In this document: positions 13,461-20,528 of the stretch, one piece after another
Layout of the letters: each line of letters opens with the position of its first letter
Numbering within the stretch: position 1 is the first letter of the stretch
Assembly: GCA_009838965.1 (NCBI GenBank)
Contig: VXQP01000010.1
Location: forward strand, 1 to 36,556
DNA length: 36,556 nt
Reading direction: 5' to 3'
Source of the DNA: Chloroflexota bacterium
Lineage (GTDB): Bacteria > Chloroflexota > Dehalococcoidia > Lucifugimonadales > Australimonadaceae
The notes under the pieces: model-generated
The model's input: only the letters and a program-made list of their open reading frames with translations
Told to the model about the DNA's origin: nothing
The model's database searches: none
Made by a program: the position numbers and the translations under genes

Positions 13461-14687
13461 ATGGTGAACGTCGCCGCTCTGCGCTGTAAGGAATGTTCCC
13501 GCGAATACCCCATCGGCGCTTTCAACGTCTGTGATTTCTGCTTCGGACCGCTGGAAGTCGTCTACGACATGGACGCTATCGCGGACATCGCCAGCAGAGA
13601 GCGCATCATGTCCGGCCCCAACAGCCTCTGGCGCTACGCTGATTTCCTTCCGGCCGAGTACAACCCGCTCGTGGACATCAACGCCGGGTTCACCCCGCTC
13701 ATCCGCTCGCGCGCGCTCGCGGAGCGCCTCGGGCTTGAGGAACTCTGGATCAAGAACGACAGCGTTAACCCCTCCTACTCGTTCAAGGACCGCGTCGTCG
13801 CCGTCGCCGCCGCCAAGGCGCTGGAATTCGGCTTCGAGACGCTCGCCTGCGCCTCCACCGGCAACCTCGCCTGCGCCGTCGCCGCTCATGCAGCCCGGGC
13901 CGGCATGAAGGCATACGTCTTCATCCCCTCCGACCTGGAGGCCGGCAAGGTGCTGGGCGCGGCCATCTACAACCCCACCATGGTCGCCGTCAACGGCAGC
14001 TACGACGACGTCAACCGCCTCTGCAGCGAACTGGCCGACCAGTATCAGTGGGCGTTCGTGAACATCAACGTCCGCCCCTTCTACGCCGACGGCAGCAAGA
14101 CGCTCGGCTACGAAGTCGCGGAGCAACTTGGGTGGCGCGCTCCCGCGCACGTGGTTGCGCCGTCGGCGTCCGGCGCGATGTTCACGAAGATCTACCAGGG
14201 GCTCAAGGAGTTCGAGTACACCGGCATCATCGACAAGGTGGAGACGCGGATGCACTGCGCGCAGGCGCGCGGCTGCTCCCCCATCGCAACCGCTTACGAA
14301 GAGGGGCGGTTCGTGATACGCCCCGTGAAACCAGCCACCATCGCCAAGTCGCTCGGCATCGGCAACCCCGCCGACGGTTACTACGCGCTGAAGACGATCG
14401 AGGCGTCCGACGGCTCTGCGGTCATCGCGGAGGAGCATGAGGTCGCGGAGGGCATCAAGCTCCTCGCGCAGACCGAGGGCATCTTCACGGAGGGAGCGGG
14501 CGGCGTCGCGATAGCCGGGCTGAAGCGCCTCGTCGAACGTGGCGAGATCCAACCGGACGAGCCGACCGTTGTCTATATCACCGGCAACGGACTCAAGACC
14601 ACGGAGATCGTGAGCGACGTCGTGAACCCCATCCTCATCGAGAGCACCGTCTCCGCTTTCGAGCAGAGCGTGGGAGTGAAGGCCTGA
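13461..14687 (+). CDS. thrC: Threonine synthase-like PLP enzyme
   Basis: 408 residues. An N-terminal zinc ribbon (Cys9-x2-Cys12 and Cys24-x2-Cys27: LRCKECSREY, NVCDFCFGP) precedes a fold-type II PLP domain. The Schiff-base lysine is Lys109 in NPSYSFKDRV, and the phosphate-binding segment is ACASTGNLACAVAAHA. Late motifs include AQTEGIFTEGAGGVAIAGL. Classical function is O-phosphohomoserine to threonine. Co-operonic NIL and MoaD-like genes raise the possibility of a related beta- or gamma-replacement using protein-bound sulfur. A GCAGGAGG ribosome site precedes the ATG. The NIL gene follows 5 bp after the stop. Confidence 0.9.
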   Translation: MVNVAALRCKECSREYPIGAFNVCDFCFGPLEVVYDMDAIADIASRERIMSGPNSLWRYADFLPAEYNPLVDINAGFTPLIRSRALAERLGLEELWIKNDSVNPSYSFKDRVVAVAAAKALEFGFETLACASTGNLACAVAAHAARAGMKAYVFIPSDLEAGKVLGAAIYNPTMVAVNGSYDDVNRLCSELADQYQWAFVNINVRPFYADGSKTLGYEVAEQLGWRAPAHVVAPSASGAMFTKIYQGLKEFEYTGIIDKVETRMHCAQARGCSPIATAYEEGRFVIRPVKPATIAKSLGIGNPADGYYALKTIEASDGSAVIAEEHEVAEGIKLLAQTEGIFTEGAGGVAIAGLKRLVERGEIQPDEPTVVYITGNGLKTTEIVSDVVNPILIESTVSAFEQSVGVKA

Positions 14688-14692
14688 ACGCC

Positions 14693-14941
14693 ATGGCCAC
14701 AACGATGCAGCGGGTGCGCTTCACCTTCCTTGACCATATGATCAAGCAGCCTGTCATCTACCGGATGGGACACGACTTCGACGTTGTCACCAACATCCGC
14801 CGCGCCGACGTGCAGGAAGGCGTGGGTTGGGTGATCCTCGAGGTCGAGGGCGAGTTGGAAGAGATCGAGCGCGGCCTGGACTGGGTCCGCTCGCTTGGCG
14901 TCAGGGTCGACCCCGCATTGGGCGACCTGATAGAACCGTAA
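14693..14941 (+). CDS. NIL-domain protein
   Basis: 82 residues forming one NIL-type ferredoxin-like domain: VRFTFLDHMIKQPVIYRMGH at the start, VVTNIRRADVQEGVGWVILE in the middle, and a helix ending in GLDWVRSLGV. NIL domains occur at the C-terminus of methionine ABC-importer ATPases and as short proteins in sulfur-amino-acid gene clusters. It is translationally tight with thrC (5 bp) and 20 bp before the MoaD-like gene. A role in binding or sensing a sulfur amino acid, or in sulfur transfer, is an inference from neighbours. Confidence 0.85.
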   Translation: MATTMQRVRFTFLDHMIKQPVIYRMGHDFDVVTNIRRADVQEGVGWVILEVEGELEEIERGLDWVRSLGVRVDPALGDLIEP

Positions 14942-14961: not shown

Positions 14962-15237
14962 ATGAGCGTAACCGTACGCATACCCGGTCCGCTGCGGCGG
15001 ATCACCAACGGGACCGACAAGGCAGCAGTGACCGCCGAGACGCTCGGCGGTGTCATCGCGGAACTCGAGGCGCAGTTCCCCGGCATCCAGGAGCGCATCC
15101 TGGACGAGAACGGCGCGCTGCGCTACTTCGTCAACCTCTACCTGAACAACGAGGACGTGCGCTTCCTGGAAGGACTCGGCACCCCGGTTAAAGCCGGTGA
15201 CGAGGTCAGCATCGTCCCCGCGGTTGCGGGAGGGTAG
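14962..15237 (+). CDS. MoaD/ThiS-family sulfur-carrier protein
   Basis: 91 residues with a ubiquitin-like beta-grasp and the C-terminal Gly-Gly (VPAVAGG) that is adenylated and thiocarboxylated in this family. Visible features are VTVRIPGPLRRITNG, FVNLYLNNEDVRFLEG and VKAGDEVSIVPAVAGG. The start at 14962 has CACGGAGGAACC 6-20 bp before it. Its neighbours recall the CysO-type system, in which a carrier thiocarboxylate gives sulfur to a PLP enzyme; molybdopterin synthesis is the alternative. No E1-like or JAB-protease gene is in the window. Confidence 0.9.
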   Translation: MSVTVRIPGPLRRITNGTDKAAVTAETLGGVIAELEAQFPGIQERILDENGALRYFVNLYLNNEDVRFLEGLGTPVKAGDEVSIVPAVAGG

Positions 15238-15254: not shown

Positions 15255-15953
15255 ATGCGCGGGCCCAGGAACAACGACGAGTACTCCGACAGAGAGCTCG
15301 CCGAGATCGAGGAGCTGAACAGCCTGCCGGAAGACCACCGCTCGTTCTTCCAGAACCCCTGGTGGCAGCGGGTCGCCATCGGCTTCGCCTTTCTCATCGT
15401 TATCTCTATGCTCTTTCCGGTCATCGCACTCTCGTGCAACGGCGAGTCCGAGCCCGGCCCGACGCAGCCCACGGGCGGCATCCCGGCGCCGGACTTCGAG
15501 CTCGCCGCCGCGCAGGGCGGGCTCGTGAGCCTCTCCGATACGCTCGCGGCCAACGAGGCCGTCGTCATCGTCTTCTACCGGGGCCACTTCTGAGGGATCT
15601 GCATCACCCAGCTCGGCGAGCTGGAACAGGCCTACGACGAGATGCGCGCGCTGGATACGGAACTCATCGCGCTGAGCACGGACGACATCCCTCGCGCGAA
15701 GCAGATGCAGGAGCGCGTCGGGGCGCGGTACCCGGTCCTCGCCGACCCGAACCACAGGGTTGCGGAGGAGTACGGCGTGTTCAACCTGCTTGGCGACGGC
15801 GTGGCGGCGCCCGCCACAATCATCATGACCTCGGACCGCATCGTTGCGATGCAGGTGGGGCAGGACATCGGCGACCGCCCGTCCACCGCCTCCATCCTCC
15901 ACACCCTCCGCCAACTCAAGGCCGGGGAACTCGAGCCCGCCGCCGCGAGCTAG
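15255..15953 (+). CDS. Selenocysteine-containing, membrane-anchored peroxiredoxin-like protein
   Basis: A single 232-residue product is inferred by reading the TGA at 15591-15593 as selenocysteine (Sec113). Residues 1-38 are charged, 39-60 form one membrane helix, and a short linker (ESEPGPTQPTGG) leads to a redoxin domain (about 74-220): APDFELAAAQGG, VVIVFYRGHF, then Sec-Gly-Ile-Cys, ITQLGELEQAY, LIALSTDD, YPVLADPNHRVAEEYGVF. In AhpC/TSA relatives the position after FYRGxW/F is the peroxidatic Cys, followed by xxC, so Sec replaces the catalytic Cys. The frame stays open and homologous after the TGA, and a SECIS-like hairpin follows. It begins 17 bp after the sulfur-carrier gene. Two separate ORFs or a TGC-to-TGA sequencing error are the alternatives. 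Confidence 0.85.
15608..15624 (+). promoter_or_regulatory. Bacterial SECIS-like hairpin
   Basis: CCAGCTC-GGC-GAGCTGG is a perfect 7-bp stem with a three-base GGC loop. The stem starts 14 nt after the TGA, and 21 nt separate the TGA from the loop. Known bacterial SECIS elements have the loop about 16-37 nt after the UGA and a G in the first two loop bases; both hold here. It lies inside the coding frame and would bind SelB-Sec-tRNA. Confidence 0.7.
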
Positions 15954-19190: not shown

Positions 19191-20528
19191 ATGCTCTCAG
19201 CGACCGATAACGAACTGCTGACGCAGGTGAGCGCCGGGACCCCGATGGGCGATCTCATACGCCGCTACTGGATACCCGCCGTCTTCTCCTCCGAGGTCGA
19301 GGCGGACGGGACCCCGCACCGCACGCGGCTCTTCGGCGAAGACCTCCTCGTCGTGCGCCTTACGAGCGGCGCAGTCGCCACGATGACCCCGTACTGCCCG
19401 CACCGCACCGCTTCGCTCTACTTCGGCCGCAACGAAGAGGAGGGCTTGCGCTGCGCCTACCACGGTTGGAAGTTCGCGGCGGATGGCACGTGCATGGATA
19501 TGCCGAGCGAGCCGCCCGAGAGCAACTTCAAGGACAAGGTGACCCTCAAGACCTACTGCACGCTCGAGCGCAACGGCGTCATCTGGACCTACATGGGCCC
19601 GGAGCAGGATTCCCCGCCGCCGCTGCCCAACATCGAGTGGAACATGGTGCCGGAGTCCCATTGCTACCTCACCAAGCGCATCGCCCAGAACAACTACTTC
19701 CAGACCATCGAGGGCGAAATCGACTCCAGCCACAGCGGCTTCCTCCACTCCAACTTCGTCGACCCCTTCCGGCTCGAATCGAAGCAGGAGCAGGGGATGA
19801 TCTACAAGATGCGGGACCGCCACCCCCGCTTCCAGGTGAAGGACACGGACTACGGCGTGCTCATCGGCGCCCGCCGCAACGCGGAAGAGGATACCTACTA
19901 CTGGCGCATCACCCAGTACATGTTCCCCTTCCACACCATCATCCCTCCCTACGGCGCTGACCCGCTCTTCAGCGGCCACGCATACATACCGATGGACGAC
20001 CACCACGTACTCGCCCTCTGCTTCACCTACAACCCCGTGCGCCCGCTCACCGAGAAGGAGCTCGACTTCCTCAAGTTCGGCCCCGGCAACGGGCAGCAGG
20101 GGCTTCACCCCACCGTGGACGGCTTCCTGCCGCCCATGGCCAACCGTCCCGAGAACGCGTGGTGGCCGAAGCACCATATCGACAACGACTTCAACGTGGA
20201 CTGGGAGCGCCAGAAGACCGTCCAGTTCTCCGGCCTGCCCGGCACCTGGCCGCAGGACTCCGGCATGCAGGAGACGATGGGCCGTGTGACCAACCGGACG
20301 ATGGAACACCTCGGCATCAGCGACACCGGCATCATCCGCACCCGCCGTGCCCTGCTCCGGGCCGCGAAGCTCCTGCGCGACTACGACATCGAGCCCGAGT
20401 CCGTCTGGGACCCGGATGTCTACTACATCAGGTCGGCTGCCGTCGTGCTCCCACGCGAGTCCGAGTGGGTAGAGGCGTCCCTCGAGTACCGTACTCCCAA
20501 GGAGAACGTGAACTACGCCGCGGTCTGA
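19191..20528 (+). CDS. Rieske non-haem iron ring-hydroxylating oxygenase, large subunit
   Basis: 445 residues. The Rieske [2Fe-2S] ligands are Cys69-x-His71 (PYCPHRTASL) and Cys88-x2-His91 (LRCAYHGWKF). The mononuclear iron site is in EGEIDSSHSGFLHS: Asp178, His181, His186. It resembles phthalate 4,5-dioxygenase/vanillate-demethylase-like oxygenases, which hydroxylate or O-demethylate aromatics with electrons from a reductase. No reductase gene is adjacent. GAGGAGGAACC precedes the ATG. The gene stands alone between divergent aroC and convergent DUF429, with a terminator-like hairpin after it. Substrate unknown. Confidence 0.93.
   Translation: MLSATDNELLTQVSAGTPMGDLIRRYWIPAVFSSEVEADGTPHRTRLFGEDLLVVRLTSGAVATMTPYCPHRTASLYFGRNEEEGLRCAYHGWKFAADGTCMDMPSEPPESNFKDKVTLKTYCTLERNGVIWTYMGPEQDSPPPLPNIEWNMVPESHCYLTKRIAQNNYFQTIEGEIDSSHSGFLHSNFVDPFRLESKQEQGMIYKMRDRHPRFQVKDTDYGVLIGARRNAEEDTYYWRITQYMFPFHTIIPPYGADPLFSGHAYIPMDDHHVLALCFTYNPVRPLTEKELDFLKFGPGNGQQGLHPTVDGFLPPMANRPENAWWPKHHIDNDFNVDWERQKTVQFSGLPGTWPQDSGMQETMGRVTNRTMEHLGISDTGIIRTRRALLRAAKLLRDYDIEPESVWDPDVYYIRSAAVVLPRESEWVEASLEYRTPKENVNYAAV

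Follow-up and report, generated by a model that had tools for sequence, protein, structure and literature searches.

A TGA-interrupted redoxin gene of a Chloroflexota genome predicts a membrane-anchored selenoprotein with a UxxC site

A redoxin gene that is interrupted by a stop codon may be a broken gene or may encode a selenoprotein, and one such locus in a Chloroflexota bacterium raises this question together with that of what its product would do. The locus lies in the window, that is, the whole stretch of 36,556 nt that was analysed (contig VXQP01000010.1), and the host genome measures 3.01 Mb and is 96.6% complete. In the window sequence, a single frame runs from ATG 15255 through TGA 15591-15593, which is codon 113, to TAG 15951-15953. 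The features of the gene are as follows.

15255-15953, + strand: predicted Prx-like selenoprotein gene, 232 aa with TGA as Sec, from the frame and family matches
15372-15428, + strand: predicted transmembrane anchor, residues 40-58, within a modelled helix of residues 35-61; N-in/C-out orientation from the positive-inside rule, ALSC at 58-61
15591-15593, + strand: TGA codon, predicted Sec113, in frame and kept in relatives
15600-15602, + strand: Cys116, the second active-site residue of U-G-I-C, placed by profile alignment on the peroxidatic Cys of PrxQ/Bcp
15608-15624, + strand: putative bacterial SECIS hairpin CCAGCUC-GGC-GAGCUGG, from covariation in homologues
15810-15812, + strand: Pro186, aligned both with the peroxiredoxin catalytic Arg and with the proline of ResA, which is the cis-Pro in Trx-type enzymes

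The 232-aa read-through product matched AhpC-TSA (PF00578) with 94.3 bits (cut-off 26) over residues 77-198 and Redoxin with 73.2 bits, and both matches spanned the two sides of the TGA. The initial annotation had described a TGA interrupting an otherwise continuous redoxin frame and giving a UxxC motif (Sec113-Gly-Ile-Cys116); the coordinates, the AhpC-TSA match across both halves and the read-through product bear this out. The joint presence of PF00578 and U-x-x-C is that of Prx-like UxxC proteins, and the AhpC-TSA domain with a Prx fold is that of the peroxiredoxin family. No NCBIfam model reached its cut-off with the 232-aa protein, and the SelL-related model NF040769 scored 44 bits, below its curated cut-off of 120. 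A contig search for relatives, apparently with a query back-translated with Cys only, returned five weak matches of 25-30% identity.

Conservation of the TGA was then followed through the order. Homologues of the Prx-like gene were present in 67 of 147 sampled genomes, nearly all with the in-frame TGA, and the same codon was found in all four other sampled genomes of the window's genus at 62-85% protein identity. At the UxxC motif, 49 distinct sequences carried TGA and two carried TGC. Chance or a single error does not explain the TGA, since it recurs in every other sampled genome of the genus and in all 49 Sec-type sequences. The part 3' of the TGA gave dN/dS values of 0.23-0.57 against the same-genus copies, as under purifying selection. 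The initial annotation had pointed to the sel genes as a check, and the window's genome contained all of them: a tRNA-Sec with UCA anticodon (69.9 bits), SelA (432 bits), SelB (339 bits) and SelD (386 bits, with an internal in-frame TGA of its own). SelA was detected in 142 of the 147 genomes.

The two TGC sequences place Cys at column 113, which the initial annotation had likewise proposed to look for in homologues. They read CTGC (L054) and CKPC (L055) and come from same-family orthologues that share the syntenic locus; the tree places them inside the Sec forms with support of 100/100. One Sec-to-Cys replacement, in one sister genus and at the same locus, is the simplest reading of both.

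The hairpin at 15608-15624 has 7 bp, a GGC loop 21 nt after the UGA and a folding energy of -10.0 kcal/mol, and it agrees with the published bSECIS rules (PMC13188914). Tests on a lone sequence were uninformative: 7-8% of synonymous recodings of the window sequence matched the hairpin, and single-sequence folding of 63 nt at the TGA gave z = +0.72. Covariation across homologues was therefore used. Over 30 homologues, 91.4% of cells were paired, versus 16-41% with a slid partner and 85.6% after shuffling, and three pairs showed double changes. The wobble base of a Gln codon and the first base of a Leu codon varied together, as CAG...CTG or CAA...TTG (8,1/2,16; Fisher p = 0.00017, an indicative value, the sequences being related). 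This swap from CAG/CTG to CAA/TTG is synonymous at both codons and compensatory. GC content was considered as the source of the CAA/TTG pairing and rejected on two genes from the same genus: at a GC3 near 0.9, both used CAA and TTG at the hairpin and no TTG elsewhere in the compared stretch. The SelD gene of the same genome carries AGGACCUC-GGC-GAGGUCCU, whose CUC-GGC-GAG apex is identical to that of the hairpin at 15608-15624. An Rfam scan of the TGA region gave no match. Covariance model R1 matched strongly only at the Prx-like locus in the genome (61.9 bits; next 17.5 bits, E 0.05) and is thus unfit for listing other SECIS elements. The case for a SECIS element rests on the family and not on the window's hairpin taken alone, and on comparative grounds SelB and tRNA-Sec almost certainly read UGA 15591-15593 as Sec, with the hairpin at 15608-15624 as the SECIS.

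Other explanations of the TGA fared poorly. A 112-aa product stopping at the TGA is possible, and the assembly consists of 106 contigs, probably from a metagenome, so that a pseudogene, a sequencing error or a regulated truncation with UGA as a stop has to be weighed; but the same TGA in every sampled genome of the genus and in dozens further out, the purifying selection on the downstream half and the covariation of the hairpin make these very improbable. Several genes of the window's genome hold an in-frame TGA, as they would if UGA were reassigned genome-wide to Trp or Gly and not recoded at 15591 alone. Against this, the threonine-synthase-like (thrC-like) gene of the same operon ends at TGA 14685-14687 as an ordinary stop, which shows that the code is not simply reassigned; the in-frame TGAs examined fall at redox-active positions or at the catalytic position of SelD, and the UCA-anticodon tRNA-Sec, SelA and SelB are present. 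We regard genome-wide reassignment as having next to no chance of being correct. The selenoprotein claim of the initial annotation is thus upheld by the kept TGA, the conserved downstream coding, the sel genes and the SECIS hairpin. Judged from sequence, the seemingly stop-broken gene almost certainly encodes a real selenocysteine enzyme, and we put the probability of a bona fide selenoprotein with an exported UxxC site at about 95%, a figure that excludes the substrate.

The placement of Sec113 proved different from that first proposed. The initial annotation had put Sec at the peroxidatic position of a peroxiredoxin, which is off by three residues. In profile alignments, FYRGxFUGxC aligned with FFPAAFSPVC of the Bcp/PrxQ protein 2cx3 and with the stretch of ResA that ends in GTWCEPC. 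The Sec113 column is thereby that of the Thr/Ser of PxxxT/SxxC and of the first Cys of the ResA CxxC, and Cys116 falls on the peroxidatic Cys of peroxiredoxins. Arg109 stands in place of the motif Pro, and Pro186 occupies both the catalytic Arg column and that of the ResA proline. The roles of these motif residues in peroxiredoxins and in ResA are established. Only the Cys column of PxxxT/SxxC (or U) with its catalytic Arg was kept, as Cys116. Of the ResA/TlpA features, UxxC at the helix start, a proline before the late strand and predicted export were found. With Sec113 on the first-Cys column, Cys116 on the peroxidatic column and Pro and Arg replaced, the protein combines a UxxC site of the thioredoxin type with the fold of a peroxiredoxin.

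The predicted model (pLDDT 86) comprised a helix at residues 35-61 and a redoxin domain at 72-227. Its closest folds were those of peroxiredoxins, with Z near 22 across some 150 residues and with Bcp4, AhpC, AhpE and Prx1 as neighbours. The single hydrophobic segment, 40-58, is preceded by K/R and followed by none, which by the positive-inside rule places the redox domain outside; this supports the membrane anchor proposed in the initial annotation. Outside the family, short lipoprotein-like signals, for example LAGC, VLGC and LGGC, are found in many relatives. Within the window's genus, most copies have ALSC after the helix; a lipoprotein signal is doubtful there because a 39-residue N-terminal region precedes the helix. 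From the sequence, the model and the lipoprotein-like relatives, we infer a single-pass membrane protein with its peroxiredoxin-fold domain outside the cytoplasm. In the region before the helix (15255-15371 of the window), the motif ERELAEIEELNRL is conserved in two genera, and the N-terminal region with ERELAEIEELNRL may make a cytoplasmic contact.

Upstream of the Prx-like gene, the window contains three further genes of a conserved cluster, with intergenic gaps of 5, 20 and 17 bases.

13461-14687, + strand: threonine-synthase-like PLP enzyme (TIGR00260), which opens the conserved cluster and has TGA as its stop
14693-14941, + strand: NIL-domain protein, a conserved neighbour
14962-15237, + strand: ThiS/MoaD family, SAMP1-like sulfur carrier or small modifier, by family match

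Against TIGR00260, the thrC-like protein scored above the cut-off; the ThiS protein narrowly exceeded that of SAMP1, a ubiquitin-like small modifier (60.5 vs 60). These three genes precede the Prx-like gene in all 13 family loci besides the window, which cover the window's genus and five other genera and include the two Cys forms, and the five loci examined beyond this family lacked them. In most family loci with the downstream side covered, aroKB lies convergent downstream. The window also encodes, at 19191-20528, a Rieske oxygenase whose C-terminal domain is LigXa-like and whose place beside aroC is conserved in some relatives. Co-localisation with the thrC-like PLP enzyme, NIL and the ThiS/SAMP1-like protein weakly suggests a link to sulfur handling. 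A broader proposal, that a lineage-wide extracytoplasmic FYRGxFUGxC subfamily, fixed in one bacterial family in an operon with the thrC-like, NIL and ThiS/SAMP1-like genes, acts in a hitherto undescribed redox step of sulfur or selenium handling at the membrane, appears unlikely as a whole.

The predicted active site, Sec113-Gly-Ile-Cys116, lies where the redoxin domain's first long helix begins, in a thioredoxin/TlpA arrangement. Most likely, the Sec113 selenolate would attack a disulfide or hydroperoxide in the cell envelope, Cys116 would resolve the product as a selenenylsulfide, and an extracytoplasmic dithiol donor would then reduce it again. The fold is closest to peroxiredoxins but the residues are closest to ResA/TlpA, and both peroxidase and disulfide reductase are candidate functions. 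An envelope thiol:disulfide oxidoreductase of the ResA/TlpA type, which would reduce disulfides in exported or metal-binding proteins, has about an even chance of being the actual function: UxxC lies on the ResA CxxC, Pro186 on the ResA proline, and the anchored or lipoprotein-like form fits such a role, but the whole fold is nearer to peroxiredoxins and no DsbD_TM/CcdA-type electron donor homologue was found in the 96.6% complete genome. A true peroxiredoxin-type peroxidase, with an exported domain that reduces peroxides, Sec as the peroxidatic residue and Cys116 resolving, is a more tentative candidate. The structural neighbours and the Pfam AhpC-TSA and Redoxin matches speak for it; the loss of PxxxT/SxxC and Arg (Pro to Arg109, Thr/Ser to Sec113, Arg to Pro186) speaks against it, as do the classical TxxU peroxiredoxins (FPAAFTGGU and FPRAGTKGU) that already fill the peroxidase role in the same genome. 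The genes of these two TxxU proteins, L002 (G000:C63:1244-1624; AFTGGU) and L004 (G000:C68:47647-48015; AGTKGU), have candidate hairpins 3' of the TGA.

Proteins of this kind have been described before. A 'Prx-like protein' with UXXC was reported from the Sargasso Sea in 2005 (PMC1088965), followed by the GOS 'Prx-like 1' (pfam00578, UxxC; PMC2398784) and the 'Prx-like thiol:disulfide oxidoreductase' (PF00578, UxxC/UxxU; PMC13188914). The window protein shares with them PF00578, Sec in a thioredoxin-like UxxC and not TxxU, and a bacterial SECIS downstream, and it is a protein of the already described 'Prx-like, UXXC' kind. By their descriptions, it differs in the membrane anchor, the family-wide synteny with thrC-like, NIL and ThiS genes and the FYRGxFUGxC motif. 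Novelty, as first proposed, therefore holds only in part: the UxxC selenoprotein as such has been known since 2005. The operon context and the anchor, which the initial annotation named as possibly undescribed, are both conserved across the whole family of genomes. Sec-containing TxxU peroxiredoxins, of which the window's genome has two genes, share its fold and Pfam family, but its Sec lies three residues earlier, without PxxxT/SxxC and without the catalytic Arg. With ResA/TlpA it has in common the N-terminal anchor, the CxxC position and the proline before the late strand; unlike them, it has Sec as the first Cys, a fold closer to Prx and no CcdA/DsbD partner found. The SelL-related proteins (NF040769) and the UxxS selenoproteins of the cd02970 'peroxiredoxin-like family protein' are also Prx-like redoxins that may carry Sec, but the window protein has UxxC, not UxxU or UxxS, and falls below the NF040769 cut-off.

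The locus thus adds a securely predicted selenoprotein to an order with SelA in nearly every sampled genome, from a gene that automatic annotation would split at the TGA. Its covarying coding hairpin offers a clean SECIS for the lineage, and the syntenic Sec-to-Cys swap inside one family a natural pair for comparing an envelope redox enzyme with and without selenium.

Further selenoprotein candidates were met in the survey. The window's genome seems to hold many selenoproteins: redoxins of a TlpA-like or exported type with a TGA were seen at L077, L078 and L079 (G000:C76, C92 and C1), with the motifs VTUPPC, WTYIUINC and, in two tandem copies that are lipoprotein-like, FATWUPNC and FATWUPTC. 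In another family, L037 and L041 each hold two redoxin domains in one reading frame; neighbouring copies also occur in genomes G128, G144 and G156. Each domain of L037 and L041 has its own TGA and hairpin; with the motifs FYRGYFUGIC and FFRAWWUxxC, they are predicted double selenoproteins.
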